The notes under the pieces were generated by a model. That model saw nothing but the letters and a program-made list of their open reading frames with translations. It did no database searches and was not told the DNA's origin. Made by a program: the position numbers and the translations under genes. A stretch of 36,538 bases of DNA from an uncultured bacterium (GTDB lineage: Bacteria; Cyanobacteriota; Vampirovibrionia; Gastranaerophilales; Gastranaerophilaceae): positions 1 through 36,538 of the forward strand of contig CAOJDT010000010.1 in assembly GCA_948433295.1 (NCBI GenBank). Reading direction: 5' to 3'. Positions 8,833-32,326 of the stretch are shown piece by piece (positions within the stretch are counted from its first letter, which is position 1; every line of letters starts with the position of its first letter).

Positions 8833-9553
8833 ATGAAAGAGATTTTATTAGAAAATTTATTACATATTTTAGAGCGGGAATTTAGTACAAAAGTAAAAGT
8901 AAAATTTAACCAATATAATGGACAGGATAATCCAATGGAATTATATAAAGCTAATCCTGATGAAATTAATAATGACTGGTTATTTTGGCGAACAGATAAA
9001 AGATATTTTAATGTAGGTGATATCGCAATTTGTTTCTTAAAACTTGCAAATGATAAATGGTTACTAACAACTATTAAAAAAGTTACAGAAGAATTTAATG
9101 TTAAAAATGCTGTTAATTATGCTGGTCAAGAACTTGACGAATATAAAGAATTTTTTGGAAGAATAATTGTAACTTATCACAAAGAACATCAAACCCAATG
9201 TTGTTATTACAATAATATCTCTGATAGGTTGATTCTTAATCAAGTTTTGCCAACACAATTTGATGGTGAAGATTTTCCAGGTTATGACAAAGTAAGATTA
9301 ACTTATTTTCAACTTGAAACAATTATTAAGCGGATTACAAAGATGGCAAAATTATATATGCAATGGGCATGGCGGAAATATTGGTTTGATAGAACTTATT
9401 AATGAAAAAGGATTTGATTATGTAAAACAATATTTTCAATATTCAATTCTTGAAAATTATAATGCTAAAGTTGATGATAAAATTATTTTAGAAAGAGAGT
9501 CTTGGTGGAAAGAAACTCTTTGTAGCAAAATTTTTGGTTATAACAAAAATTAA
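8833..9553 (+). pseudogene. GIY-YIG nuclease-like gene with the catalytic core deleted
   Basis: The first frame (8833-9402, 189 codons) encodes an N-terminal domain ending ...LTYFQLETIIKR. From about 9330 the real continuation lies in another frame (to 9553): RWQNYICNGHGGN, LINEKGFDYVKQYFQYSILE, then ESWWKETLCSKIFGYNKN. That block is what follows the GIY-YIG motif in a family of GIY-YIG proteins known to me, whose members carry a segment like KGIYLI...YVGSAYG between these two parts. Here that segment is absent and the frame changes at the join, as expected of an out-of-frame internal deletion of some tens of codons. The catalytic Tyr and Arg would be lost. The family assignment rests on recall of the C-terminal motif. 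A strong terminator follows. Confidence 0.65.
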
Positions 9554-15699: not shown

Positions 15700-17469
15700 C
15701 TATATTTCTATAATATTGTCAAAAAATTCAAACAATTTTTTCTTTTGTAAATCTTTATTGATATTATCATAAGTATTCTTATGAATACAAAGTATCAAAT
15801 CTTTTTTCGCTCTAGATAAAGCAACAAATATTATTCTTTGTTCTTCTCCACTATCCCACCACGTTTCTGATGGGCATTGTTCATAAGATTTAGCACTAGG
15901 TTTCTCACAATATATCAAGCAAGTCTCAAATTCTTCACCTTTAACTCCATGAATAGTATCTATTCTTGTAATATTTTTCCACCATAAATTTTCTTGTTTA
16001 AGTTTTAGATTTCTTTTAATAATCCCTTTTTTATTATCTTTAGATAATTTTTTGTTAAAACTTTTATGGTATAGACCATATTTCTTTGATATATCAAGCA
16101 ATAAATTATTAATTCTGCTCATCCAATCATTCCAAGTTTCATTTTCTTTTACTTCATATAACTCTATAATTAACAAATATAAATCTTTTTTCCATGTACT
16201 TTTACTGATATTATGCTTCATCAATAATTCTTGTAACTCATAATCTTGATTAGTTTCAAATAACAGATGTGATATACATTTTTCAAATTGCTTATAGGCT
16301 TTACTTTTATCTACATTAAAATAATTATGCAAAATATAATTTATTTGTTTTGCTAAATGACTTTGTACAGGACATTCATTATATTTGGTATAACGAAATT
16401 TATTACATATACTATTACGTCTTGCAAGAATTGCAAAAGAACCATTATTTGAAATTAATTTTGCTACTTCTTCTTTAAATTTATTATCTAAATTTTTAGA
16501 ATGATTGTGAATAATTAAAGTATTATTACCTTTATAACTTTTTACAGAATTTATAGTTTTTCCTTTTTGAGAAAAGGTTGAAATTAATTTTGTAATATTG
16601 GAACAACTCCGGAAATTGTTAGTTAAAGAATATTCAATTATTCCTTGTTCTTTTAATATTTTAAATATTCTAGCTTCTGCTCCTATAAAGCTATAAATAG
16701 ATTGATCTGAATCTCCTATGAGGAAGTTTTTCGTTGAGTTTTTCATTAAAAATAATAGAACTTCTTCTAAAAAATAACCTGTATCTTGAATTTCATCAAC
16801 AAAAATATATGGGAATTTATAATTTAATACTTCAAGAATGTGCGAGCCGAACTCAGGATGTCTTAATAATTGTAGTGTAAGGTATTTAAGATCTGAATAA
16901 TTAATAATTCCTTTTTGCCAGCAATCTTCTTTTGCTTTTTTTACATGATTTTCCCAAGTCCACTTATTTATAAATTTTCCTTTATCATATGAAACTCTTG
17001 GAAAATTCGAGTTTTCGCCAATAAATTCTAAGTCTAAAATTGATTTTTTAATTGATTCATCATTACTGTCCTTTGCACAATAAACGTTATTTTTTTGTAA
17101 AAATGAGTTATAATTTTTATCTTCAATAATATAAAGTTTGTCTGTTGATAAATAGCCAAGTAAATGACCATATGGTCTGATAATGTAAGTATAAATAAAA
17201 GAATCAAAAGTTCCAACGAAATGCTTATTAGGAAGAATATTTCCATAATCTTTTTTAATTTTTTCTTGGGCAACATTTGTAAACGATAAACAAGCAATTC
17301 CTCCATGTAACTCCCAATTTTTAATGCACTTTTGAAAAATATCGACTAAAAGAGTTGTTTTACCACTACCAGGGCAAGCGTTTACAAGAATAGTTTGTTC
17401 TTTTGAGTTTGTAACAGCATCAATAATAGATTTTTGTTCATCATTTGGATAATTACTAATGTTCTCCAT
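15700..17469 (-). CDS. gajB: UvrD/Rep-type helicase, Gabija GajB-like
   Basis: This 589-residue superfamily 1A helicase has Walker A ACPGSGKTTL (31-40), AcLSFTNVAQEKI, Walker B YIFVDEIQDT, motif III GDSDQSIYSFIGA, NNFRS, motif V TIHGVKGEEFETCLIY and motif VI RIIFVALSRAKKDLIL. It overlaps the OLD-family gene upstream by 14 nt with AGGAG just before its ATG, which is the order and coupling of gajA-gajB. In Gabija, GajB works with the GajA nuclease against phage DNA. The protein is longer than the commonly cited GajB (about 500 residues); the additional length appears to be in the middle, around residues 330-470. Another OLD-helicase pair is possible but Gabija fits best. Confidence 0.85.
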   Translation of the reverse strand: MENISNYPNDEQKSIIDAVTNSKEQTILVNACPGSGKTTLLVDIFQKCIKNWELHGGIACLSFTNVAQEKIKKDYGNILPNKHFVGTFDSFIYTYIIRPYGHLLGYLSTDKLYIIEDKNYNSFLQKNNVYCAKDSNDESIKKSILDLEFIGENSNFPRVSYDKGKFINKWTWENHVKKAKEDCWQKGIINYSDLKYLTLQLLRHPEFGSHILEVLNYKFPYIFVDEIQDTGYFLEEVLLFLMKNSTKNFLIGDSDQSIYSFIGAEARIFKILKEQGIIEYSLTNNFRSCSNITKLISTFSQKGKTINSVKSYKGNNTLIIHNHSKNLDNKFKEEVAKLISNNGSFAILARRNSICNKFRYTKYNECPVQSHLAKQINYILHNYFNVDKSKAYKQFEKCISHLLFETNQDYELQELLMKHNISKSTWKKDLYLLIIELYEVKENETWNDWMSRINNLLLDISKKYGLYHKSFNKKLSKDNKKGIIKRNLKLKQENLWWKNITRIDTIHGVKGEEFETCLIYCEKPSAKSYEQCPSETWWDSGEEQRIIFVALSRAKKDLILCIHKNTYDNINKDLQKKKLFEFFDNIIEI

Positions 17470-19237
17470 ATTCTCCTATCACATGTTCTATAGCCTGTTT
17501 GATGTAAATAGGACATTCTATTTTTAAAGAATTTTCTTCAATTTGCATTAGTAATTGTTCCATAAATTCGCATTTAGAATTTTTAGAAGTAGTACAAATG
17601 TCTAACCAAATTGCTTTAATTTTTTTTTGATTTTCTGTTTCATTATTTATTAATTCTCTTAATTTAGAACCTTTATTTGGATGGATTTGTTCCCAAGCCA
17701 CCAATATAGGTTCTAAATCATTTATATTAGCTTTTGCAAGTTCATACTCTAATGTTACATCAGACGTAAATATTTGAAGGCTATTTTTATTATCATAATT
17801 TTCTATTAAATTTTTAACTCTGGCACATTTTTCTTTGTTTTTTAAACCTATAATTTTATCTTTATCATCTTTTTGGGTTTCTGGATCAGAATCAGTAATT
17901 ATTGATACTGGAATATTTATACCATCACTAGTATATAATTCTGCTATTTCTTTAAACTCTACACCACATGGAATAATAGAAACACCGTGCTCTTTTAAAT
18001 TATATCCCATTTCAGTAGCAAGTTTATTTATAAGCATTGCTTCGGTAATCCCTTCAACAAATATAATACCTTTGGCAAAAAACATTGTAGCTTTTGTAAT
18101 ATCAACAAATCTTTTGAATTTTCCCCAACTAAGTTTTTTATCCACAAATGTATTTTTTAGATTTATCAGACTAAAACTTTTTATTTTTGTTCCCGTATTA
18201 TACATCAGGTGTATTGATTCAGGTTCAACATTTTGCGATAAAACTGCTGAATGTGATGTTACAATTGTTTGAACTTTTTTGTCATTAGAGCAATTGTTAT
18301 CTAATGTTTCAGCAAGTAAGGCTTGTAATTGCGGATGTAAATGAGCCTCTGGTTCTTCAATAATCAATAAAGGTACTTTAATATTCTCAGAATCTTCCAA
18401 TTGCATACATAATTTTGCAATGATTATGGAAATACAAAGTAAATTATTATAACCTAATCCATTAGTCGATAATTCAGTAATATTACCTTTTAAATTAACT
18501 TTTAAATTTTGTATAATTTGCTCAAATGATGTTTCGGAAGAATTTATAGAAGCCTCTTGTTTAAAAGCTTTATCTCCGCATACTCTTTTAAGATTATCGT
18601 TCAAATCGTTTTCTACAGCTTTTATAAGTGTTGATTTACTCATCTCTTCATTCGCTTTGTTAATTTTATCAACTAGTTCTTCTTTATGTTCAGGATTTTT
18701 TAGCACTTTTAGATTAAATAATTCACTAATATAATTTCTCTTACCTGGAATAATTTGTTTGAGTGCATCTCTCAAAGCTCCTAAATAAGTTATAGGTAAT
18801 GATTGAAAAATGTCTGAGTCAACTGAATTATTCCCAATTCCACCATACCATCCACGAGTATATCTTTGATTTTTTTCATTCCAACTCCAATTAAATGTTA
18901 AATAAGCTGTTCTTGGAGATATTGTTGTGCCATCTGCTAAAATGCTTTGGAACTCAGCTTCTAAAGGAACTGAATCAATACCATTAAATTCTAATGTAAT
19001 TCTAATTGGTTTAGAAAAATCTTGTTTTCCTTCACCGTTTATATATATATCATCTTTTGATAAGTTAATTGGTTCAACAGGATCAAAAAAACAGTTCAAA
19101 GCTATTCTTAATGCTGAAACTAAATTAGTTTTTCCAACATTATTTTCACCTAAGATTACATTAAGTCCTTTATTTAAATTTATTTCAAAATTTTCTAAAT
19201 TTCTAAAATTTTCTACTTTTACTTTAGATATAAACAC
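17456..19237 (-). CDS. gajA: OLD-family ATPase-TOPRIM nuclease, Gabija GajA-like
   Basis: This 593-residue protein combines an ABC-type ATPase and a TOPRIM nuclease. Walker A GENNVGKTN spans residues 30-38, the signature region STNGLGYNNLL lies near 257, Walker B LLIIEEPEAHLHPQ near 290, and TSHSA near 327. The TOPRIM domain has Glu395 in FVEGITEAML and the DxD pair Asp449/Asp451 in ITDSDPE. Length is close to known GajA. GajA is a sequence-preferring DNA nickase held inactive by nucleotides in the cell. The start is GTG at 19237 (VFISKVKVENFRN), served by GGGAG 5 nt upstream. A possible -10 TATAAT lies at 19273-19278 on the minus strand with only a weak -35. It leads a three-gene operon. Confidence 0.88.
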   Translation of the reverse strand: MFISKVKVENFRNLENFEINLNKGLNVILGENNVGKTNLVSALRIALNCFFDPVEPINLSKDDIYINGEGKQDFSKPIRITLEFNGIDSVPLEAEFQSILADGTTISPRTAYLTFNWSWNEKNQRYTRGWYGGIGNNSVDSDIFQSLPITYLGALRDALKQIIPGKRNYISELFNLKVLKNPEHKEELVDKINKANEEMSKSTLIKAVENDLNDNLKRVCGDKAFKQEASINSSETSFEQIIQNLKVNLKGNITELSTNGLGYNNLLCISIIIAKLCMQLEDSENIKVPLLIIEEPEAHLHPQLQALLAETLDNNCSNDKKVQTIVTSHSAVLSQNVEPESIHLMYNTGTKIKSFSLINLKNTFVDKKLSWGKFKRFVDITKATMFFAKGIIFVEGITEAMLINKLATEMGYNLKEHGVSIIPCGVEFKEIAELYTSDGINIPVSIITDSDPETQKDDKDKIIGLKNKEKCARVKNLIENYDNKNSLQIFTSDVTLEYELAKANINDLEPILVAWEQIHPNKGSKLRELINNETENQKKIKAIWLDICTTSKNSKCEFMEQLLMQIEENSLKIECPIYIKQAIEHVIGEYGEH

Positions 19238-19979: not shown

Positions 19980-21922
19980 AACTTCGATGCGACTTGTTGA
20001 ATTAACGGATAAATATATTTCATTAATTCATTTTCAATTATCCTCTTATTATTTTCAGTCGGTACAATTATAGTTACGGTTTGCATTAAACCATCCTGTT
20101 TAATAACATCTTCACTATTTTTACTAACTATACCAACAATTACATCATACTGTTGTTTTAGTACAGTACCTTTTGTTTCTTCTGATTTCAAATTTACTTT
20201 ATAAACAACCTTTATTGAAAGATTACTGTTATTTTCCGGAATAGAAATTTTATTTTTAAATCCCAAAGAATTTAATTCATCTACCTGTTCTTGAAATTCT
20301 GAAGGATGGATGGCAATCGGAGCTTTTAAACTTGACGCTAATGCACCAAATGCTATTTTTTCAAAATTTGTAATTTTAACTTCATTTCCATCAACTTCTA
20401 CTTTATCAGGATAATAATTAAACATATTTGCTTTATTTGCACTTCTGGTCATTGTTGTCATATGAACAATATCTCTTTTACTTGGGTAATCAATACCGTC
20501 AATATAAGGTTTACTCATTTTGCATTCTGCAGTGCCGTTATTTACGGAAACGACTCGATAGTCCCAGGTTGGTACAAGAATTTGTTTTCCTGATTTTTCG
20601 GTTTTTATCTTTTTGAATACCGTTATAACATTACCGACCTTTAAAAAGCCATTGGAATCTACTAATGTTATATATTGATTATCTGTTTTAGATATTTTAA
20701 ATTGTATATCTTTAAATTGAATTTCTTTCTGCATTGATAATGCTAATTTATTCAACAAATTTTTAGCTAAAATTTCCATATTAGCTTCATCATTAAATCG
20801 GAAATCACCCACTACTTTGTTAGTTATTTCGTCATCAGAACAGTGTGAGTAAACAATTCTTCCTGCTTTATCAAAAATTATCCCGCAAGCAAGCATTGAA
20901 TATTTATCAGTATTAAAATATGCTTTATTTGATTTATATTGAGCATAAGCCGGCGGAGTAAAATACAGTTTCAAAAAGTAATCAGGCATTGTTCTGTTAT
21001 AAGCATTCATACTTTTGAAATCCATATTGAGTGACACTAATGCAGATTGCATATCATAATACGTTTTATCAGTTGTCATTAATGAAAATTCTGCATTGGT
21101 TCCCAAAGATGTTGCAAATATATTATATAATTTTTCATTTGCAAAATCATTAATAAAAAGAATTTTTGGCTTCTTCAATTGAGTAATATTAGTATTGGCA
21201 AATTTACTAAAATTGCTGTTTCCTGACGGTTTACCTAAAACTTTTTCCGCAACAGAATAATTTAAGTCAGAATAAATAACGGAAATTTGGTTGACATTTT
21301 CATCTGTAAGCAAATCTCCCTTTGCAATACCGCTTTCAAGCCCTTTGTCTAAAATATAAAGCTGTCTGTATGTATCGGTAATTTTGGTATTAATATCAAA
21401 CGGTTTAAAATCTATACTCGCCTGTTTAACTATTTCTTCCAAAGTCTGCTCATAGTTTTTATTATATAATTCCGAAATTTTTTCTTTTCTTTTTTCTAAA
21501 TTTGATTCTGCAAGTGTTTCATATTTAAAATAATTAGTAACAGGATAAGAATATAAAGTTTCACCCGTAGCCATATTAACAAAATTAATACTCATCGTTA
21601 ACGGCAAATAAATATCCAACAGTTTATCTGATTTTTTTACATAATATTGAGAAACTCTCGGTACATGGACGTAAGCTGCAAAAGTTTTATATTTTGTTTT
21701 TTCGGAAATTTCGCTGTTTGCATTTGGAAAATATTTATGAAATTGATTCAAATATTTATTAACAAACGACTCTCTATGTTTTTCCAAAACTTTGTTAAAA
21801 GTTTTATCATCTATATTTTTGCTTGTAAAAACCGCAGGAATAGGATAAACATTTAATTCCTGAGAATGTGCAGCAATGGCTGTAAAAATTACAGCCATTG
21901 TCATTATTATTAATTTCTTCAT
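19976..21922 (-). CDS. Secreted FlgT-like protein with SH3-like repeats
   Basis: This 648-residue protein has a signal peptide (residues 1-20, MKKLIIMTMAVIFTAIAAHS|QE). No lipobox or other membrane segment is seen. Two stretches resemble the SH3-like C-terminal domain of FlgT-type proteins: LYILDKGLESGIAKGDLLTDENVNQISVIY near residue 190, and ITLVDSNGFLKVGNVITVFKKI with a following VVSVNNGTAECKM segment near 420-480. The segment between them (KPKILFINDFANEKLYNIFATSL) is globular and unrecognised. It is translationally coupled to the upstream 579-residue gene by an ATGA overlap. A periplasmic or outer-membrane-associated assembly role is plausible; the assignment is by pattern only. Confidence 0.5.
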   Translation of the reverse strand: MKKLIIMTMAVIFTAIAAHSQELNVYPIPAVFTSKNIDDKTFNKVLEKHRESFVNKYLNQFHKYFPNANSEISEKTKYKTFAAYVHVPRVSQYYVKKSDKLLDIYLPLTMSINFVNMATGETLYSYPVTNYFKYETLAESNLEKRKEKISELYNKNYEQTLEEIVKQASIDFKPFDINTKITDTYRQLYILDKGLESGIAKGDLLTDENVNQISVIYSDLNYSVAEKVLGKPSGNSNFSKFANTNITQLKKPKILFINDFANEKLYNIFATSLGTNAEFSLMTTDKTYYDMQSALVSLNMDFKSMNAYNRTMPDYFLKLYFTPPAYAQYKSNKAYFNTDKYSMLACGIIFDKAGRIVYSHCSDDEITNKVVGDFRFNDEANMEILAKNLLNKLALSMQKEIQFKDIQFKISKTDNQYITLVDSNGFLKVGNVITVFKKIKTEKSGKQILVPTWDYRVVSVNNGTAECKMSKPYIDGIDYPSKRDIVHMTTMTRSANKANMFNYYPDKVEVDGNEVKITNFEKIAFGALASSLKAPIAIHPSEFQEQVDELNSLGFKNKISIPENNSNLSIKVVYKVNLKSEETKGTVLKQQYDVIVGIVSKNSEDVIKQDGLMQTVTIIVPTENNKRIIENELMKYIYPLIQQVASKF

Positions 21923-23658
21923 AAATTAGGAATTCCTTTCGCATTCATTGGTGAAAAAATAATCTGATTTCCATTGATTTTGTAATCATAATTTTGGAAT
22001 TTAGCAGACATGTTCGAATCATACAATTTCATAAAAATTGCATCCGCTAAACCATCTTGTCCTGAATAATTAACAGTAAACTCTGCCTGTGTAGAATCGG
22101 AAGTTCTTTGATTAACATTTTTTATCCCATCAACATTTTGGATTGCTTTATTTATTGTAATTTTTTCAATAGGCAAGAAGTTACCTTTTACCAGAACAAC
22201 GTATTCTGAACCGTACATCATACGTCTTTTCCAATAATCTTGAATTTTCTTTGATAAAACTTCACCGAGTTCATTACCGATTTTTTTTGCAACCGCACTT
22301 CTCGCTTGATCGGCAGAATTGCCTGAGGCAGTTTCGGTAAAAGTACCTGAAGCAATAACTTCTCCATCAACTGTTGAATATACTTTTACAAAAACATTAC
22401 CGTCACAAGTATTTCTACCGGTATTTTCATTCTTGCCATTGTCTGTAATATACGAAACTCCTATTGCAAAGAAATCAGCTTTTGCATCTTTTCTTGCTGC
22501 TTCCACATAGTTTGCGAGTTCGGCTGAATTTGCCAATTTATCGGAAGTTACAGGCTTTCCTTTAAAATATTTACTTTTAAATATATCATTATCCAATGCT
22601 CTTATATCATACATTACAAATGCATCTTGCAAAGCGGGCTGAGTAAAATTAAGATTTTCAGCCTTTGGAGATGCTACATCATACTCTTTAATATTTTGGA
22701 AAAATTCATTTTCTTTTTTGCTGTAATCAACAAAATGACCATAAGAAGCTTTTGCTCCGGAAGAAGAAGCATAATTATATCTCTTTGCATTGGAACCGCT
22801 GCTTTTATAGCTGTTATTATGGCTGCTGTTTACAGAACCGGAATATCCTCCGCCTCCATAAGCTCCATAATAACCGGCAGAACCTCCTGCGCTATAATTT
22901 CCTCTGCTTTTTGAATTTACATTATAGGTATTTGAACTGCTGCCACTGCCTTTTGCATTTGCGTAGCTGCTTGCAGATGCTTTTTCATTATCCTTTAGTT
23001 TTTCATCATAATCATATTTATATGTCGTAACTTCCTTAGTTAATACATTTTTAGTTAAATCTGACGGTCTTGCAAAAAATTCATCCAATACCAACATAAT
23101 TGAATGAGCTCTGACGACCTGAGTATTTAAAGCAACACCCATATCAGAAAGAAGTGTTCTAAACTCTGTTTCATCAACAGTTAAATATACTTTTGCAATA
23201 TAATTGTTATCTTCTACTTCGCCTGTAAAACTCTGATCCAAAATGTAAGTACTTGATTGAGAAAGAATTTCATCAAATTTTTCTTGAATTTCAGGCTTTT
23301 TAGAAGCATTTGCGCCCAGGGTTCTATCAATCAAAACGCTAATACCTGCTTTTAACGCATTGTCTTGAGCTTCAGATACAACAGTGGTTCGAACTGCATC
23401 ACTTAATCTTTTATCCTGTTTTTTTCGAGTTTCTGCCTGCCTCGACGCCTCTTTTATTTGTTGAGATTGTACGACTTCTAAATCGGAATTTTTTGCCTTT
23501 TTATTCATTTTAGCATCTTGTTTATCACGGACAGCCTTAATATCATAACCTGTTAATGGCGCATAACCTTTACCCTCGATTTTTATCTCAACCGCCATTA
23601 ACGAATTAAAAATCCCGCAAATGAGAAATATTGCCGAACATATTAATATATTTTTCAT
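21919..23658 (-). CDS. Secreted FlgT/LPP20-like protein with a Ser/Gly/Tyr/Asn-rich insert
   Basis: This 579-residue protein has a signal peptide (MKNILICSAIFLICGIFNSLMA|VE). The N-terminus (EIKIEGKGYAPLTGYDIKAVRDKQDA...AVRTTVVSEAQDNALKAGISVLIDRTLG) has the 'EG.A......A...A...A' pattern of FlgT/LPP20-type domains. Residues about 228-310 are low-complexity, dominated by Ser, Gly, Tyr, Asn and Ala (for example GGSAGYYGAYGGGGYSGS). A second globular region (DAKADFFAIGVSYITD...NVFVKVYSTVDGEVIASGTFTETASG) and a C-terminal domain (EYVVLVKGNFLPIEKITINKAIQNVDGIKNVNQR) follow. Ribosome-binding site AAGGAG lies right behind a terminator hairpin. Likely an envelope protein working with the coupled downstream gene. 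Confidence 0.55.
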   Translation of the reverse strand: MKNILICSAIFLICGIFNSLMAVEIKIEGKGYAPLTGYDIKAVRDKQDAKMNKKAKNSDLEVVQSQQIKEASRQAETRKKQDKRLSDAVRTTVVSEAQDNALKAGISVLIDRTLGANASKKPEIQEKFDEILSQSSTYILDQSFTGEVEDNNYIAKVYLTVDETEFRTLLSDMGVALNTQVVRAHSIMLVLDEFFARPSDLTKNVLTKEVTTYKYDYDEKLKDNEKASASSYANAKGSGSSSNTYNVNSKSRGNYSAGGSAGYYGAYGGGGYSGSVNSSHNNSYKSSGSNAKRYNYASSSGAKASYGHFVDYSKKENEFFQNIKEYDVASPKAENLNFTQPALQDAFVMYDIRALDNDIFKSKYFKGKPVTSDKLANSAELANYVEAARKDAKADFFAIGVSYITDNGKNENTGRNTCDGNVFVKVYSTVDGEVIASGTFTETASGNSADQARSAVAKKIGNELGEVLSKKIQDYWKRRMMYGSEYVVLVKGNFLPIEKITINKAIQNVDGIKNVNQRTSDSTQAEFTVNYSGQDGLADAIFMKLYDSNMSAKFQNYDYKINGNQIIFSPMNAKGIPNL

Positions 23659-24987: not shown

Positions 24988-25164
24988 GCGGCACAATATG
25001 AAAATATGTTTGCACCTGCAATAATTTTGCTTGCCGTACCGCTTGCGATTTTCGGGGCTATTAAACAGGTGATAACAATCTATATATCAATGCATTTTAT
25101 ATACAAGCTGCAAATTATTAATATCAACAAATTTTTTATATGTATACGGAATTTCAATACTTAA
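24949..25164 (+). pseudogene. Fragment of a small membrane protein at the repeat
   Basis: From ATG 24949 the frame encodes MSNDIISSATRAIAAQYENMF and then a clear membrane segment (APAIILLAVPLAIFGAIKQVI). After about residue 46 it turns into low-quality sequence and overlaps the convergent usher gene by 78 nt before stopping at 25164. The first part reads like a genuine protein and the last like out-of-context DNA, suggesting a gene whose 3' part was lost. Its first codons coincide with the 51-bp repeat. There is no good ribosome-binding site. Confidence 0.35.
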
Positions 25165-28062
25165 AATACTTTTATTTTCGTAATTTTCAAGAGCATTTGC
25201 ATTTATAAAACTATCATCAAGTTTTACAGTATATTTACCCGGTTCAATTCCCGAAAAATTAAAATATCCGTCAGAATTAACGGTACTGTATCCGACTTCT
25301 TCCCCGTTTTCATTATTAATCACTACAATATATTCATCAATTGGTTTTACTCTATCAAAATCATCTATTATTTTTAAATTTCCTGTGACATTACCAACAC
25401 AACTTTTTATGGGAATTTCAATACGAGTTGTTTTCCCTCTGTCTATTCTCACTATTTTATCTGTATCTTTGCCTTTTTCTTGATATAAAGTAGCATTCAG
25501 TTTATCTGCATCAATTTTTACTGTATAAATCCCCGAATCTGTTCCTATTGGAATTGCTTTACCGCTTCTGTTTGTATATATTTCATTATTTACCCAACTG
25601 AATCTTAAAGGAACATTTTTTACAGGAATATCTCCTTTATCAAATTTTCCGTTTTTATTTTTATCAATATATACTGTAACTTCAACATAACCTCGATTAT
25701 CATCGTTAAATCCTACCGATTTTAAACCGGATGGTAACACTGCAAATGTATCATTCATAACTATATTAACAGAATGTCTTGAACTCATAGGGAGATACAT
25801 ATTGTTTATAATATATCCTCCTATTTGATTGTATTGGTAGTTTATATTTATAGTTCTGCCTGATTTTGTTCTGTATGCAAGATTTGCCGAAAAGTCAAAC
25901 CCATTATCAGAACCCGTGTATTTATAACCGGTACCGATACTGAGGGTTACTCTTTTGATTTCAGGGAAAGTGTAACCTATTTTCATCATATTGTATTTGT
26001 TGGAGGTATTAGAGTAATCATAATTAACTACATCATGCCCGATGGAAAGTGAACCAAGATTTTTCGGAATTTTGTAATCAGTTTTTAAATAAATCGTAGA
26101 ATATAATGATTTAAAATCATCATAAGAACTATTGTCATAATTTGTTTGATATTTACTTTCAGTCTTTCCGCATTGCAAAGTCAAATAATCTTTTATTTTT
26201 TTAGAAACATTTAAATCATAATAGTAACTGTTGTTGTGTGCGATTGAATTAGCTCCGTCCCTGCCGTTGATATTAAATCTGAAATCCGCAACTTTTTCGA
26301 TACTTTTGTGAACTCCTAAACTGTATTCATTAAAGTTCAATAACCCGCCTTCAAACTTTTTATCCATATTAGAAAAATACTTTTTAAAAGTTCCGTCTAT
26401 ACCTGAATTTTTACCGCTTATACTGCCCCGAACAAATCCTCCTGTTCTGTCATTTATATAACTCCCGTCACTTCCTGCCAGATAAAAATCGGATGAAGTA
26501 TTAAATAAACCACATCTCAAGCTATAATTATTCTTTGCATAATCTGCCTGAGCAGTAATGGTATAACCTGCATTTTCACCTTTTGTAATATCATTTGCCA
26601 TACTTACTCCAAATGCTGTTTTATATTTCAAAAAATCATTTTTTATATATTCAAGTGTATTTAAACTTGTAGCGCCTTCTAAATTATTCGGATTTTTCCA
26701 GGTACCTGATGTCAAAAGAGAATCTGTTGAATAAACGCTTTGCCAAATTGAATTTTGTGGAGTTGAAAAAATTTTATCAGCAGAAAATTTTGAATCAAAC
26801 TTGATATTATCCTTTATCCCGTATTCAAATTCTGAAGCAAATAAAGCTTTTTTAGTGTTCATTTCATATATGTAACCGTTTGTATTAAAAAGTTTATTGT
26901 TGTAACCTGTAACTCCACCAAGTAATGTGTATTTTTTTTCACCTTGCAAAGGCATGTTTTCATATTTTTTATAAACTTTTCCTAAAACAGTTGCGGTTGT
27001 TCCGTCGGGTTTTAATTCTTCAATACGTATAGACTTTGGTTTTTCATTCAATGAAATATTACTTAAAGAATAATATCCGTCATACGTACTTAAAGTAGTA
27101 TATTCTTTATCGTCGATAAAAACTTTAGCAAGACTTTCTTTATCAACATAACCTTCAATATCTCTGTATGTAGTTTTTTTAGTTTCGTAATTACTGATTT
27201 GCAAGCCTAAAGTTTGATTAGCAATTGTATAATCCTCATCTTTGATTCCGCGTACTCTTCCCAGTTCATAATCATATCCTTTAAATTTATTGTGATAATT
27301 AAATCCAAGCCCTCCAAAAGAAAAGAGTTCACCTTTGTAATTATAAGTATTCAGATCAACGTTTAAATCTCCACCAAAAACTTTTCCTTTTAAAAAAAGT
27401 TGAGTATTGTTATTGATAAACATATTTCGGGTTTTACTCTCATTAAGAAAATATTGAGAAATAGTATCACTCATTGTGTTATTATTAAGTGTTAGAGAAT
27501 TAAAATATATTTTTTTTTCGTTTTCGGGAGCCAGAACATTTTTATAAGCTCTTATTTTTGGCAATTCTGTTTTATCACTACTTTCACTATTCAAAAGCGT
27601 AAGATTTCTCTCTGTAACTGCCGAAACCGATAAATCATTTTTATCGGCATTAAGCTCTGATTCAAAAATCAAACTTAAATCTTTTGCCGAGCAAAAAATT
27701 TCATCTTTAACTTCGTCCATTAAGCCTTGTTTCAAATAGTAATTTTTGTTAGAAGAAATCTTTTTGCCATTAAATTCAATAAAACTTTTGCTGACTCTAC
27801 CTTTTTTACCATCAGTTGTCTCAAAATCAATATCTTTTGTGGAATGATTAGTTTTAATTTTAACCTCAAAAATTTCAGACAGTTGTTTAAACGGCAAAAA
27901 AACTTTTTCACCGGTGATAAGAAGTTCGACATCGTAACAAGCTGTGTTGTTTAAAATTATATATGATATTATTGTTTCTGTTTTTTCTGCCGCAAAACAG
28001 GGCTGAAAAAATATTATCAGCCCTAATATTACGGCAAAAAAAATCCTTATTATGTTATTCAT
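25087..28062 (-). CDS. Outer-membrane fimbrial usher-like protein (CooC/TcfC-like)
   Basis: This 991-residue protein has a signal peptide (to about residue 25, FFQPCFA|AE). Residues 30-130 resemble a copper-amine-oxidase-N-type domain (ITGEKVFLPFKQLSEIFEVKIKT...FCSAKDLSLIFESEL). A long region of alternating beta-strands from about residue 190 to 770 fits a usher barrel with plug (YDYELGRVRGIKDEDYTIANQTLG; VFIDDKEYTTLSTYDGYYSLSNI). Two C-terminal Ig-like domains follow: VYIDKNKNGKFDKGDIPVKNVPLRF (SdrD-B-like) and VNSDGYFNFSGIEPGKYTVKL (carboxypeptidase-regulatory-like). It would thread pilus subunits across the outer membrane. The start codon overlaps the upstream pilin stop (TAATG). Closest type appears to be alpha/CS1-like ushers; exact clade uncertain. 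Confidence 0.75.
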   Translation of the reverse strand: MNNIIRIFFAVILGLIIFFQPCFAAEKTETIISYIILNNTACYDVELLITGEKVFLPFKQLSEIFEVKIKTNHSTKDIDFETTDGKKGRVSKSFIEFNGKKISSNKNYYLKQGLMDEVKDEIFCSAKDLSLIFESELNADKNDLSVSAVTERNLTLLNSESSDKTELPKIRAYKNVLAPENEKKIYFNSLTLNNNTMSDTISQYFLNESKTRNMFINNNTQLFLKGKVFGGDLNVDLNTYNYKGELFSFGGLGFNYHNKFKGYDYELGRVRGIKDEDYTIANQTLGLQISNYETKKTTYRDIEGYVDKESLAKVFIDDKEYTTLSTYDGYYSLSNISLNEKPKSIRIEELKPDGTTATVLGKVYKKYENMPLQGEKKYTLLGGVTGYNNKLFNTNGYIYEMNTKKALFASEFEYGIKDNIKFDSKFSADKIFSTPQNSIWQSVYSTDSLLTSGTWKNPNNLEGATSLNTLEYIKNDFLKYKTAFGVSMANDITKGENAGYTITAQADYAKNNYSLRCGLFNTSSDFYLAGSDGSYINDRTGGFVRGSISGKNSGIDGTFKKYFSNMDKKFEGGLLNFNEYSLGVHKSIEKVADFRFNINGRDGANSIAHNNSYYYDLNVSKKIKDYLTLQCGKTESKYQTNYDNSSYDDFKSLYSTIYLKTDYKIPKNLGSLSIGHDVVNYDYSNTSNKYNMMKIGYTFPEIKRVTLSIGTGYKYTGSDNGFDFSANLAYRTKSGRTININYQYNQIGGYIINNMYLPMSSRHSVNIVMNDTFAVLPSGLKSVGFNDDNRGYVEVTVYIDKNKNGKFDKGDIPVKNVPLRFSWVNNEIYTNRSGKAIPIGTDSGIYTVKIDADKLNATLYQEKGKDTDKIVRIDRGKTTRIEIPIKSCVGNVTGNLKIIDDFDRVKPIDEYIVVINNENGEEVGYSTVNSDGYFNFSGIEPGKYTVKLDDSFINANALENYENKSILSIEIPYTYKKFVDINNLQLVYKMH

Positions 28063-28688
28063 TACGGATTTCTGTTTGCACTAAATGTTACTACTGCCTG
28101 ATACACACCTGCTCTGTCATTTGTAAGCGAATAAGTACTTGTTAAAGGATTACTCCCGACGGTTTGAATAAGAGTCCCGTCTTTGCTTGTTCCTGTTTTA
28201 ACTATATAACATAACCCTCCATAAGCTGAATTATTTGTTAATGTCGCTGACGCAAGGTTGTTAAGAGTATTGGTTAAAGGATAAGCTATAACATTTGCGT
28301 TATTTGCAGATATTGGGGTCCCGCTTTTTATGTCATTAACGGCAGAGACGGTCGGATATAATGTCGGGGAATTATTCCCCAACAAAATATATCCGTTTGA
28401 CGCAATCTGAGCATAAGCATTAACGCTTGTTCCTCCCGTTGTCAGCAGTGATGCTTGAACAACATATGTATAATTTGTATCTGCTCCGTTAGTTTGAAGC
28501 CTGAAAGATGCAACAGGTGATGATGAAACACCTGTTGCAGGATTGATTGTTCCCTGAGCGGCTGATGTGTTTACAGCTGTGACATTAACAGCCGCAGGAA
28601 CAGTTGTTGTTATTGTCTGCTGAAAGGTTGTTGCCGCATAACAAGATTGCATTAATAAAAAACAAATTACGACAGCGGGAAATTTCAA
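28062..28688 (-). CDS. Pilin-like secreted subunit, paralogue 2
   Basis: This 208-residue protein has a signal peptide (MKFPAVVICFLLMQSCYA|AT). The mature chain is Thr/Ser/Ala/Asn-rich and beta-predicted, with few charges. It starts with alternating hydrophobics (TFQQTITTTVPAAVNVTAV), the sort of N-terminal extension used for donor-strand exchange, and ends AGVYQAVVTFSANRNP. It shares ANNANxIAYPL and the YS.T.DxAGxYQAxxT ending with the gene upstream, so the two are tandem duplicates. A single-nucleotide TAATG overlap couples it to the usher. Likely a major or minor pilus subunit. Confidence 0.65.
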   Translation of the reverse strand: MKFPAVVICFLLMQSCYAATTFQQTITTTVPAAVNVTAVNTSAAQGTINPATGVSSSPVASFRLQTNGADTNYTYVVQASLLTTGGTSVNAYAQIASNGYILLGNNSPTLYPTVSAVNDIKSGTPISANNANVIAYPLTNTLNNLASATLTNNSAYGGLCYIVKTGTSKDGTLIQTVGSNPLTSTYSLTNDRAGVYQAVVTFSANRNP

Positions 28689-28696
28689 CTCTTCAC

Positions 28697-29323
28697 CTAC
28701 AAGCTTGTCGAAGTTAGAGTCATGATTGCCTGATAAGTTCCTGCATTATCCAAAAACGAATATGTTCCGGAATAAGGCGTGGTTCCGGTTGTCGTTGTAG
28801 CAATAGTTGTTCCGCCTTTAACAGAAACATTATACTGGTTTTTTGTTGCATCATAAGTTGCAGTACCCGTGTTATCTAAGTTAACACTTGCAATCGGATA
28901 TGCTATAGCATTTGCATTATTTGCGGCAACGGGAGCTGCAGCTTTACAGTCTGCAATTGCTGCGGCTGTCGGTTGTTTACCGGTTGCAGTGTTTGAAAAG
29001 ACAACATAAGTTTGGCTTCCCTGCTGGAAAAGTGCATTTACGTCACCTGTCGAACCTGTAGTTTTTGCTTGAAGAAATAAATTTTGGGTATCAGTGTTAA
29101 GGTTAACCTGAAACTTTGAGACTAAAGCCGCAGCAAGTGCACCCGTATCCGGTGTAATGGTTGTAGTTGTTACTGCACCTGCCGTTACGGGAGTTATATC
29201 CAAATAAGTCCCCAGAGTAGCCTGTAATGTCTGAGATGCTGTGTTTGAGATTGCATGTGACACATTTAATGTTGCAATCAGTGCAGGTAAAATCATTAAG
29301 CCTGCAAGTTTTTTGTTAATCAT
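28697..29323 (-). CDS. Pilin-like secreted subunit, paralogue 1
   Basis: This 208-residue protein has a signal peptide (MINKKLAGLMILPALIATLNVSHA|IS). The N-terminus of the mature chain is SQTLQATLGTYLDITPV. A Thr/Ala-rich beta-domain has VAANNANAIAYPIASV in the middle and YSGTYSFLDNAGTYQAIMTLTS at the end. It has the same length and the same landmark motifs as the neighbouring paralogue, 8 nt downstream. Its start is served by GAGGAGG. Being the first subunit after the chaperone with a strong ribosome-binding site, it may be the major pilin. Confidence 0.65.
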   Translation of the reverse strand: MINKKLAGLMILPALIATLNVSHAISNTASQTLQATLGTYLDITPVTAGAVTTTTITPDTGALAAALVSKFQVNLNTDTQNLFLQAKTTGSTGDVNALFQQGSQTYVVFSNTATGKQPTAAAIADCKAAAPVAANNANAIAYPIASVNLDNTGTATYDATKNQYNVSVKGGTTIATTTTGTTPYSGTYSFLDNAGTYQAIMTLTSTSL

Positions 29324-29339
29324 AATTTATCCTCCTCTC

Positions 29340-30176
29340 TTAAATTGATTGTTTATTATCTACTGTAAACTTATTTTCCTTTATTAAACTTTTTAATCGT
29401 CCTTTTTCGTCTTTATAATTTATTATCAGCCTCAATGTATAATCTCCGTTTTCGGATATATCATTTAAGGGAATTTGCTCATTGGTGATAAGAAAACTGT
29501 TTGCACCCGCAACATTATTTTTTATAGGATATTCTCCTATTAATTTTTTATTTCTAATAATCTGAGCTTTGCCTGAACAGCGAACTTTGCTATTACCTTC
29601 GGACAAGATTTTTAATGCAAGATTAATATCTTTTTCTGATTGTTTAATATCAAATTGTTCAATCTTTGCGCATTTTACAAAATGCCCTTTGTCAACATAA
29701 ACAGGAATTCCTACACGCGTTTTTACAATAAGTTTTGTTTGAACGTTTCTGTTACCCGAAGGCAAAAATAATTCTTTTGCAGCGACATCTTCAAGAAACA
29801 AAACCATTCTTGATTCACCATCAGGCAATGAATTCACATCTGCTATTGTTAATCGAACTTTTTGGATATTACCGTTTTGCAGTGTAAATTCATTTGGAAC
29901 AAATCTCGCGTTTTTTATTAAATTATCACTAGCTTCTGCTTGCTCAAGTATTTCCATTGTTCCCGTTTGCGATATTTTAAAATATTCCGGATAGACTTTA
30001 AAACGAATTGTTTCATTTTCTCCTCCCTGAACGGAAAAAGAAGATGTAAGATAATTTCCTCTGGCACTTGTTGTATCAAGCTCCAATATTGTAGGTGTAA
30101 TTTTTATTGCGCCGTAAGATATTGAAAATATTCCTGTACAAAAAATTGCAAATAAAAAATAAATTATTTTTTTCAT
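29340..30176 (-). CDS. PapD-like periplasmic pilus chaperone
   Basis: This 278-residue protein has a signal peptide (to about residue 22, FSISYG|AI). The N-terminal Ig-like domain (IKITPTILELDTTSARGNYLTSSFSVQGGENETIRFKVYPEYF, ...FVPNEFTLQNGNIQKVRLTI, ESRMVLFLED) fits the PapD fold with its alternating strand. VQTKLIVKTRVGIPVYVDKG corresponds to the G1/F1 region, and a second Ig domain follows. It would cap pilin subunits in the periplasm and deliver them to the usher. Stop and start overlap with the tip-like gene (TAATG), and 16 nt separate it from the first pilin. Confidence 0.75.
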   Translation of the reverse strand: MKKIIYFLFAIFCTGIFSISYGAIKITPTILELDTTSARGNYLTSSFSVQGGENETIRFKVYPEYFKISQTGTMEILEQAEASDNLIKNARFVPNEFTLQNGNIQKVRLTIADVNSLPDGESRMVLFLEDVAAKELFLPSGNRNVQTKLIVKTRVGIPVYVDKGHFVKCAKIEQFDIKQSEKDINLALKILSEGNSKVRCSGKAQIIRNKKLIGEYPIKNNVAGANSFLITNEQIPLNDISENGDYTLRLIINYKDEKGRLKSLIKENKFTVDNKQSI

Positions 30177-31066
30177 TAATTATCTCCCGCCTGTATTGAG
30201 TAAGTAAAACCATTATTATAAGTACCTTCCGGAATATAAGTTCCCGAAGTGTTTTTCAGTCTGAATTTTAAATTTATATAATCTGTCGTATAACTTCCCG
30301 TAACAGGCGTTGTAACTGTCGGATTCCCGCTGGCAAGTACATACTGCATGTTTGGTTGAATTTGTGTTTCGGTATTTATATAGTTTGTAACATTTGAAGA
30401 CACACCCGTTATCAGAAAATAATAATTTGCAGGCAAAGTTCCGATTGTTGCCGTATTCATTATAAGTTTCCAACTGCCGTTTGATTTGATAATAATTTGC
30501 GGAGTTACTGAATTATCCGCAACAACATTCCCATCAAATACATTCTCAGGTGTAAGAATAATATTAACAGGATTTGTTGTGGTTGAAACATCTTGAGTAT
30601 TCGGAATAACAAAACTTAAGGTATAAACAACCGTATTAGGAGAAAGTGTGGTATTTGAATCAAACTGAAGTCTGGTTGTATAGCTTCCGGGAGGAAGTAC
30701 TCCTATGTTTTTTACAATACAGTTATAATTTGCAGTATAACCGCCAACTCCTATAGCAAGACCGTTAATAAGCGTAACCTGATTATTGTATATCATTTGA
30801 AAATCATTTGTTCCGTTATTCAAATAAAGCTGTGATATAGGAATTTTATAATTAGAATTTGTTGTATTAGTAATAAACTGGTCCAGAGCTTTGACTTTCA
30901 AAGTAAGCGTCAAAGATATCAGTGTACTGACTGAAACCTGAATAGGGGTTGATACGGTAGTTGTTCCTACAGTTGTGCCACCTGTGCTTTGTACGGAAAT
31001 TCCGCAAAAACCTTTATTACAAGTTACAATAAAAATTATTATTATTATAAGAAATAATTTTTTCAT
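30176..31066 (-). CDS. Secreted tip/adhesin-like subunit of the pilus operon
   Basis: This 296-residue protein has a signal peptide (MKKLFLIIIIIFIVTCNKGFC|GI). The mature chain is Thr/Asn/Ile-rich, beta-predicted and low in charge. A two-domain build is likely: residues 35-170 (VSVSTLISLTLTLKVKALDQF...YTTRLQFDSNTTLSPNTVVYTLSFVI) and 185-296, ending PEGTYNNGFTYSIQAGDN like the last strand of fimbrial subunits. It is the first gene of the operon and longer than the pilins, so a tip adhesin or initiating subunit is the best guess. No binding pocket can be read from sequence. Confidence 0.55.
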   Translation of the reverse strand: MKKLFLIIIIIFIVTCNKGFCGISVQSTGGTTVGTTTVSTPIQVSVSTLISLTLTLKVKALDQFITNTTNSNYKIPISQLYLNNGTNDFQMIYNNQVTLINGLAIGVGGYTANYNCIVKNIGVLPPGSYTTRLQFDSNTTLSPNTVVYTLSFVIPNTQDVSTTTNPVNIILTPENVFDGNVVADNSVTPQIIIKSNGSWKLIMNTATIGTLPANYYFLITGVSSNVTNYINTETQIQPNMQYVLASGNPTVTTPVTGSYTTDYINLKFRLKNTSGTYIPEGTYNNGFTYSIQAGDN

Positions 31067-31187: not shown

Positions 31188-31652
31188 ATGAAAAAAATAC
31201 TGATTATACTATTAATTTTTACCGGACAAAGCGTATTTTGCGCCGATCAGATTTTATCGACAACTCTACCGCAAGTTATGGAAATTGAAAAAATTATTGT
31301 TGAAAATATTGAATATAATAGAGATGACCCTATGCCTAATATGAATATTAAAGATTCAACAAATGTGGATGCAAATACTATTACTTTAAGGCTAAGCCCC
31401 GTAAAAGTTCAACTTCACACAAATTCTTCAACTCCTATAAGTGTCAATGCAACTTTTAAAGAATTAAAACACACGAGTGGTATATATAATTTTAATCCAT
31501 CAAATTTGTTAATAAAACCGAGTACATATACAATTAATGACCCGTATGATCACGTTATTACAGACATTTTTACACCTTATGTAAATGTAAAACCTGATAC
31601 GATTTTAGGCAGTTACCGCGGTTCAATTCTTTTTACACTTGGAGGATTATGA
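31188..31652 (+). CDS. Third pilin-like secreted protein, divergent from the pilus operon
   Basis: This 154-residue protein has a signal peptide (MKKILIILLIFTGQSVFC|AD). The ATG at 31188 is chosen because the signal peptide begins there; an upstream TTG at 31170 adds nothing useful. The mature chain begins DQILSTTLPQVMEIEKI, with the same alternating hydrophobic start as the two pilins, and ends ILGSYRGSILFTLGGL, matching the GxYxxxxxxT end of fimbrial subunits. It probably is a minor or anchoring subunit. It overlaps the next gene by ATGA. Confidence 0.5.
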   Translation: MKKILIILLIFTGQSVFCADQILSTTLPQVMEIEKIIVENIEYNRDDPMPNMNIKDSTNVDANTITLRLSPVKVQLHTNSSTPISVNATFKELKHTSGIYNFNPSNLLIKPSTYTINDPYDHVITDIFTPYVNVKPDTILGSYRGSILFTLGGL

Positions 31653-32326
31653 AAAAACTTTTAATTTTTATTTTAGTTTTTTTAATTTGTCCTCTGGCAT
31701 TTGGCACTCCGCAAACAAGCCTCAATTCTTTTGAAATTCCTATTGATGCAGTGCCTCCCGGAACAGATAACTCCACTAATTCAAAACATTCAAACGGTTT
31801 AAGTGATGGAGCTGTTACGGCAATAACATTAGGTTCTGTATTCGGAGGGTTATCAGCTATAGGTGGTTTAGGTTGGTATCTTACAAAACATAACTCCGGA
31901 CTTGCCTGCGGTTGCGCCTGTGGAGTAAAAACACCGCTAAAACCGATATTTTTAAAAGATTTTTGCACAGATTTCTCAAAAAACAAAGCCCTTGAGAAAG
32001 CTTTCGCATTAATCGACAAATCTGAAAACAAAAAATATTTATTTATTACAGATATGAAAATTAAAGAAAAATCTTACAACACAGTAATTTTTGAAATTCC
32101 CCAAAATATGCCGAATTTTAAAATCATTCAGGTAGCCGAAGGACAACTGAATTCAAAACTTATAGTTTCTAATACTGAAATTCCCGTTAAAACCAATCTT
32201 AATAATAAAGTCATTATTAAACAGGGTAAAATTCCGGAAACAAAAGAACAAAACGCAGCTTTAGTTATTGAAAATTATAAGACGGAACAAATCTATGCAA
32301 TAATTATTGAATTTTCACCATCATAA
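31649..32326 (+). CDS. Secreted or membrane-anchored protein with a Cys cluster, unknown
   Basis: This 225-residue protein has a signal peptide (MKKLLIFILVFLICPLAFG|TP), then a Gly-rich hydrophobic segment near residues 56-82 (VTAITLGSVFGGLSAIGGLGWYLTK). Next comes CGCACG, and then a soluble domain of about 130 residues with beta-strands (YNTVIFEIPQNMPNFKIIQVAEGQLNSKLIVSNTEIPV). The final part could be a small Ig-like domain, but I cannot name it. It is coupled by ATGA to the pilin-like gene and so probably belongs to the pilus system. A bidirectional terminator follows. Confidence 0.5.
   Translation: MKKLLIFILVFLICPLAFGTPQTSLNSFEIPIDAVPPGTDNSTNSKHSNGLSDGAVTAITLGSVFGGLSAIGGLGWYLTKHNSGLACGCACGVKTPLKPIFLKDFCTDFSKNKALEKAFALIDKSENKKYLFITDMKIKEKSYNTVIFEIPQNMPNFKIIQVAEGQLNSKLIVSNTEIPVKTNLNNKVIIKQGKIPETKEQNAALVIENYKTEQIYAIIIEFSPS

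Follow-up and report, generated by a model that had tools for sequence, protein, structure and literature searches.

Five consecutive genes in a 36,538-nucleotide stretch of DNA from a gut Melainabacterium (assembly GCA_948433295.1, contig CAOJDT010000010.1, positions 1 to 36,538; the whole stretch is called the window below) very probably constitute a chaperone-usher (CU) pilus operon; the branch to which it belongs is deeply divergent and occurs in Gastranaerophilales. The assignment draws on gene order, the co-occurrence of usher and chaperone genes, the homology of both proteins to known CU components, and the plug and C-terminal domains of the usher. A sequence-only reading had proposed such an operon at 25087-31066 and had raised the possibility of a Melainabacterium-type host; the host lies within Gastranaerophilales, all five open reading frames (ORFs) are intact at that place on the minus strand, and the profile homology of usher and chaperone, together with an order kept across loci, bears the proposal out. 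From first to last the genes encode a tip-like protein, a chaperone, two pilin-like proteins and an usher, and the packing is as compact as had been described, with a TAATG overlap at two of the four junctions (tip/chaperone and second pilin/usher) and gaps of 16 and 8 nt at the other two.

By analogy with known families, subunits bearing signal peptides would be exported to the periplasm, where the 278-residue chaperone would hold them by lending a strand. The 991-residue outer-membrane usher would take up chaperone-subunit pairs, join the subunits by strand exchange and extrude the fiber through its barrel, tip subunit first, the barrel being closed at rest by the plug. The outer-membrane barrel, polymerization, extrusion, the order of the subunits and surface adhesion are all predicted from those families. 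The window's genome (1.96 Mb, 99.4% complete) encodes Omp85, so an outer membrane is presumably present. The Pfam LptD model had no match in this genome, a null that is uninformative because the model matched just 2 of the 14 control genomes and the cyanobacterial control gave no match either.

Homology of the usher and the chaperone

Profile comparison with hhalign links the 991-residue protein to ushers. Against a target of 11 ushers (four from Escherichia coli and seven same-phylum members of the Pfam usher family PF00577), a profile of 18 plugged homologues gave 99.2% (score 175.8, P 8.1e-20) over 690 collinear columns, where the reversed target reached 22.8 and the highest of 20 column shuffles 28.1; all 35 homologues gave 99.6% (score 212.3, P 6.6e-24, 694 columns), with the same two controls at 27.0 and 23.4. 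Compared segment by segment, the plug alone gave 95.2% (P 2.5e-8, 77 of 83 columns), the C-terminal domains 95.1% (P 3.2e-8) and the barrel after the plug 65.7% (P 5.8e-5), while the barrel segment before the plug was not significant by itself (0.2%). The alignment places window residues 300-373 on the plug of FimD. By profile comparison the protein is thus an usher homologue, collinear over barrel, plug and both C-terminal domains.

The sequence-only reading had described a copper-amine-oxidase-like N-terminal domain and a tail of SdrD-B-like and carboxypeptidase-like domains, and had called the whole unlike classical FimD ushers. Pfam returns all of these hits, although SdrD_B alone passes its cut-off (34.6 versus 29.7 bits); CarboxypepD_reg (29.8 versus 32.3 bits) and Cu_amine_oxidN1 (19.8 versus 24.2 bits, E 7.8e-4) fall below theirs, and the best SdrD_B and CarboxypepD_reg matches cover nearly identical residues (906-949 and 906-947). 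Because the tail is homologous to usher C-terminal domains, it is, as far as profiles can tell, the ordinary C-terminal pair of ushers under Pfam's labels. The supposed contrast with FimD thus falls away for the immunoglobulin (Ig)-like tail and the plug, both homologous to known ones, and stands for the N-terminal domain: hhalign detected no relationship between it and the classical domain (2.9%), and it is predicted to be a real architectural difference from the FimD type. Cu_amine_oxidN1 matches 9 of the 13 members of the usher alignment at E up to 1, and exceeds its cut-off in both scanned ushers of family f9 (33.5 and 31.6 bits).

The 278-residue protein is, by the same kind of comparison, a predicted homologue of PapD-like CU chaperones. 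Against a target of seven chaperones (four from E. coli, three from the same phylum), hhalign gave 98.3% for 30 homologues and 97.4% for the 23 from Gastranaerophilales; with E. coli alone the values were 39% and 29%. Scores of reversed targets did not exceed 16.7, and those of shuffles (30 each) did not exceed 24.8. PapD_N matches occur in 3 of 12 members of the chaperone alignment, the best of them not significant (E 0.012). At the columns of the classical basic pair, whose residues we take to be R8 and K112, the window chaperone has I30 and P158. Classical chaperones carry such a pair according to passages of PMC4654587, and judged by this alignment the window chaperone is not classical in that respect. 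P94 aligns with a proline present in all seven reference chaperones, and the proline of domain 1, described there as invariant across the superfamily, is kept in 29 of the 30 homologues. R123 lies in a GESR-like motif (25 of 30 homologues). In the hhalign alignment it is offset by two columns from the arginine that same-phylum chaperones have, and it may or may not be the domain 1 arginine of non-classical chaperones (Arg89 in CsuC and EcpB).

Several observations weigh against the assignment. No fiber has been observed for this operon, and no usher, chaperone or pilin model of Pfam or NCBIfam matches the window's proteins; PF00577 finds nothing in the 991-residue protein at E up to 1, nor in the window's genome at E 0.001. 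With the E. coli ushers alone as target, the plugged set gave 1.4% and all 35 homologues 93.7%, a weak result, and the first, 13-sequence usher alignment gave 2% against the four E. coli ushers and 0.4% against EcpC. The AlphaFold model of the usher has a mean predicted local distance difference test score (pLDDT) of 34.9, and its Foldseek alignments have TM-scores near 0.1 with root-mean-square deviations of 34-37 Å. For the chaperone the mean pLDDT is 53.1, WxLIP and RbmA come first in Foldseek, and no CU chaperone is among the 50 matches listed. The pilin-like subunits have no significant relatives among the pilins of E. coli or of the same phylum, and neither the divergent pilin-like protein nor the tip-like protein matches those of E. 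coli significantly.

The usher homology is clear only with same-phylum PF00577 ushers in the target; as sole target these gave 98.7% for the plugged set and 99.3% for all 35 homologues. The clear results for usher and chaperone alike come from the larger profiles with same-phylum proteins in the target, the earlier, smaller chaperone alignment having given 19% against the four E. coli chaperones and 0.6% against EcpB. PF00577 is not among the families listed for the 13-member usher alignment; its failure to match bars the name of PF00577 member, not the homology. PHROGs, like Pfam and NCBIfam, yielded neither an usher nor a chaperone, and the same holds for sequence searches of the PDB, in which the profile of 13 ushers found SdrD.

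The usher model, built from five sequences, holds the plug and parts of the tail alone: five of the six ten-residue blocks between residues 301 and 360 have pLDDT 73-81 and the sixth 58, and the barrel stays below 50. The sequence-only reading's expectation of a plugged barrel is therefore matched by the model in the plug, while the barrel is modelled with too little confidence to speak for or against it. Foldseek nevertheless ranked FimD (6e14) first (E 5e-8, 933 columns) and PapC (7lhh) second, with ushers in 8 of the first 10 rows; given the TM-scores and deviations above, this supports the kind of fold, not its geometry. VIA-align compared little more than the final domain in the case of the usher and domain 2 in the case of the chaperone; neither list of 50 matches contains an usher or CU chaperone chain, and these two results carry no weight.

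Conservation across genomes and alternative readings

Usher homologues and chaperone homologues occur in the identical 14 of 59 genomes, the window's own included; in one genome (G036) they are on separate contigs. Searched more broadly, the chaperone profile matches 42 of 287 genomes of the family, although in G002, G004, G257, G327 and G443 the match is in fragments only, and the usher profile matches 74 of 291 genomes of the phylum, where many matches outside the class consist of the C-terminal Ig-like part only and were not counted as ushers. Eight weak usher matches viewed with their flanks (five in family f9, three outside the class) are proteins of 878-1006 residues, with a chaperone homologue at seven of the loci (L097-L100 and L102-L104) and none found at L101. 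From these profile matches, the branch appears to have more distant members as well, in a second family of the class and in certain genomes that share only the phylum. In two of the latter (6.7 and 5.8 Mb), a chaperone and a plugged usher of this family lie side by side (L103:2531-6029 and L104:2438-6085), and the Pfam usher model misses both ushers; the distant homologue at L103 has a non-significant CooC_C match (E 0.079). PF00577 ushers themselves are found in 18 of the 291 phylum genomes, all of them related at the level of phylum and none in the same class or nearer. No homologue appeared in a scan of viral contigs, and the sole matches in a plasmid search were five weak ones, each of them within the C-terminal part.

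The order tip, chaperone, pilin, pilin, usher is kept in 17 of 25 Gastranaerophilales loci scanned with flanks, with a third pilin before the usher in two of the 17 and the usher in two ORFs in one. Six of the other eight loci are rearranged or without some members, one (L109) sits at a contig edge, and one (L114) has broken tip and chaperone genes. The scan covered part of the genomes with usher matches and left out L037, a 3.3-kb contig with a usher remnant. In genome G003 the usher is split into two overlapping ORFs (L025:6014-9009), which may reflect an assembly error, a frameshift or a real split.

The subunits bear on what the machinery makes. The two 208-residue proteins are homologous, each being detected by the profile of the other, and the family of the divergently transcribed gene at 31188 matches them at 94.0% (hhalign, P 1.4e-7). 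That family also matches the tip-like family (23 homologues) at 75.4%, with 0.2% for the reversed comparison, and the N-terminal half of the tip-like subunit resembles the divergent pilin-like protein; against the operon pilins the tip-like protein gave 19.3%. The tip role of the 296-residue protein is suggested by its position and size. Some CU systems make thin amorphous coats, and no relationship of the two 208-residue proteins to known pilins could be demonstrated, so the same chaperone and usher might secrete a thin coat or single adhesins in place of a pilus. We consider this unlikely, because a set of two paralogous subunits, a tip-like protein and a pilin-like minor subunit suggests a polymer whose positions are specialized, and because the C-termini of the pilin-like proteins share, by eye, a strand-like G-x-Y pattern. 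The two readings share chaperone and usher and overlap to that extent, so their likelihoods are not exclusive.

WxLIP proteins are surface proteins of Gram-positive bacteria, and a more radical alternative would take the 991-residue protein for an adhesin of the cell surface, or for some generic beta-barrel of the outer membrane, that carries Ig-like domains, and its neighbor for a WxLIP-like binding protein and not a chaperone. Pfam sees only SdrD_B and similar domains in the large protein, WxLIP leads the Foldseek matches of the low-confidence chaperone model, and some homologues have WxLIP matches in Pfam, one of them above the cut-off (L102). The collinear usher homology over some 690 columns, plug included, vanishes in reversed and shuffled profiles, the chaperone reaches 97-98% in hhalign, and its gene, unlike those of WxLIP proteins, travels with the usher in the same set of genomes, all of which makes this alternative very improbable. 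Decay of the operon into a functionless remnant is hardly credible either: some relatives retain only usher fragments (for example G002, G004, G088 and G200) and the genes at L025 and L114 are split or broken, but every window ORF is intact, the order is widely conserved, and the ratio of nonsynonymous to synonymous substitution (dN/dS) is 0.052 between the window and G309 (dS 2.37, near saturation), as it is 0.072 between L022 and G157.

Relatives whose ushers lack the plug

The window's usher retains its plug, and the more surprising part of the family lies in its relatives rather than in the window. In the alignment, 18 plugged ushers of the order have a plug span of 75-80 residues (75 in the window), whereas seven ushers (G013, G129, G222, G265, G168, G046 and G041) have 13-18 residues there. 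An eighth (G263) has the same gap but runs into a contig end; together the eight genomes represent six genera and two families, and the seven other ushers are full-length. Their barrel halves measure 110-111 and 423-426 residues, compared with 111 and 424 in the window. Two further ushers (G052 and G037) have a plug span of 39 residues (L032:4953-7871 and L033:6126-9044), and five ushers of f9, a second family of the class, have 2-3 residues. The f9 loci (L097-L101) combine a plug-less usher with two to four pilin-like genes in four of five cases.

In a tree of 27 ushers from which the plug columns were excluded, the seven plug-less ushers group as a single clade (100/100) within the plugged ones, the enclosing node of 19 rows having 99/98; the tree program warned that long branches meet next to this clade. 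A single clade of plugged ushers was rejected by an approximately unbiased (AU) test in which 14 plugged ushers, a group named after the tree had been seen, were held together (p 0.0014). A plug moved elsewhere in the genome was likewise rejected, at the sensitivity of the plug profile: it had no match in any of 15 genomes (eight plug-less, five f9, two short-plug) and one match in each of seven plugged control genomes, five of which had supplied rows of the profile and two of which (G157 and G323) had not. Among plug-less pairs, dN/dS is 0.084 for G046-G041 and 0.084 for G129-G265 (dS 2.16, near saturation), and two further pairs are saturated. Against the 11 ushers, the plug-less seven match in the C-terminal part only (93.5%), as do the f9 five (90.0%), and the f9 ushers match the plugged ushers at 98.1% over 445 columns.

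Taken together, it is probable that one clade of working ushers in this family has lost the plug. The absence of a plug in f9 and in the distant G089 is not callable as a loss, because the branches there are very long and unrooted. If the plug-less reading is true, these pores must be shut in another way (a subunit that stays in the pore or some other domain are examples), or else tolerate being open. The plug is described as conserved in ushers in parts of PMC4356140, and a literature search that covered a small part of the literature found no description of ushers without one; we make no claim that plug-less ushers are unpublished. If the reading is true, these relatives make it testable whether the plug is needed for fiber assembly and the seal of the outer membrane, or whether other means suffice.

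The locus, its surroundings and known systems

The features of the locus are collected in Table 1. Two genes transcribed divergently from the operon belong to the locus: the pair (31188-32326) is present in 15 of the 25 scanned loci, although not found in the five f9 loci. Replacement of the lost plug by these genes was considered and rejected, since they co-occur with plugged and plug-less ushers alike. The four operon proteins besides the usher have no significant Pfam family, and the 225-residue divergent protein none in Pfam, NCBIfam or PHROGs. Within the window, ARAGORN and Rfam (at gathering scores) gave no match, and promoter- and terminator-like sites were not more frequent than in shuffles.

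Table 1. Positions of the operon genes, usher domains, divergent genes and intact plug-less ushers (window coordinates unless a locus is named)
Feature	Position	Strand	Basis or remark
Tip-like subunit, 296 aa	30176-31066	-	First operon gene; signal peptide by eye
Periplasmic chaperone, 278 aa, without classical anchor pair	29340-30176	-	hhalign profile comparison and superfamily proline P94
Pilin-like subunit 1, 208 aa	28697-29323	-	C-terminus AGTYQAIMTLTSTSL
Pilin-like subunit 2, 208 aa, TTG start	28062-28688	-	Homologous to subunit 1
Usher, 991 aa	25087-28062	-	hhalign against 11 ushers; Foldseek on low-confidence model
Usher N-terminal domain, residues 28-180, Cu_amine_oxidN1-like	27523-27981	-	Pfam
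Usher barrel before plug, residues 181-291	27190-27522	-	Boundaries by alignment
Usher plug, residues 292-366	26965-27189	-	hhalign segment and model
Usher barrel after plug, residues 367-790	25693-26964	-	hhalign segment
Two C-terminal beta-sandwich domains of usher, residues 791-991	25090-25692	-	hhalign segment and Pfam matches
Divergent pilin-like minor subunit, 160 aa	31188-31652	+	ATG at 31188; ORF list starts at TTG 31170
Divergent 225-aa protein, role unassigned, probably exported, conserved with the locus	31649-32326	+	
Intact plug-less usher	L027:6860-9616		
Intact plug-less usher	L028:4610-7366		
Intact plug-less usher	L029:5802-8558		
Intact plug-less usher	L105:76-2832		
Intact plug-less usher	L106:6247-8988		
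Intact plug-less usher	L107:660-3419		
Intact plug-less usher	L108:5715-8465		

Elsewhere in the window, downstream of the operon, a 579-residue protein (21919-23658, minus strand), exported by its N-terminus, has a weak LipL46 match far below the cut-off (E 6.5e-5). A Gabija anti-phage pair lies at 15700-19237 on the minus strand (GajA-like, E 2.4e-134; GajB-like UvrD helicase, E 1.9e-74), and a protein at 8833-9402 on the plus strand weakly matches UzuA defense models (E 2.4e-8). The protein encoded at 1723-2787 on the minus strand has a Recombinase domain (PF07508, E 1.4e-17), a hint of possible mobility in the left part of the window.

Our literature search found no paper that treats both Melainabacteria and chaperone-usher systems. 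In the main texts of PMC5877343, PMC4451040 and PMC4040986, supplements aside, the words 'usher' and 'fimbri' are absent; the pili named in the first two are type IV, the first mentioning incomplete pili gene sets of Gastranaerophilales as well, and the third names no kind of pili. The operon would bring chaperone-usher fibers to a gut lineage of non-photosynthetic relatives of cyanobacteria, and it makes plain that standard annotation can miss such a system entirely.

The window usher has the domain order of the E. coli FimCDH and PapCD systems, described in parts of PMC4356140 as an N-terminal domain, a pore interrupted by an Ig-like plug, and two C-terminal domains, and FimD and PapC are the top Foldseek matches of its low-confidence model. 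It differs from these systems in its N-terminal domain, in a very weak direct sequence signal, and in a chaperone without the classical R8/K112. With EcpABCD, the E. coli common pilus, the operon shares the chaperone-usher layout. The Ecp chaperone is described in passages of PMC4654587 as non-classical and without the classical basic pair, a pair that the window's chaperone lacks too. Direct comparison, a weak test with single-sequence targets, gave 0.1% (plugged set) and 18.9% (all 35 homologues) for EcpC against the ushers, and 0.9% (23 homologues) and 24% (30 homologues) for EcpB against the chaperones. Archaic CU systems occur in Cyanobacteria (PMC4654587, in part), and the 18 same-phylum genomes with PF00577 ushers are probably cyanobacteria with systems of this archaic type. 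The Gastranaerophilales branch differs from these in falling below the Pfam cut-off, in the other N-terminal domain of its usher and in subunits without recognizable kinship, but its usher is homologous to theirs over barrel, plug and C-terminal domains, and its chaperone is related.

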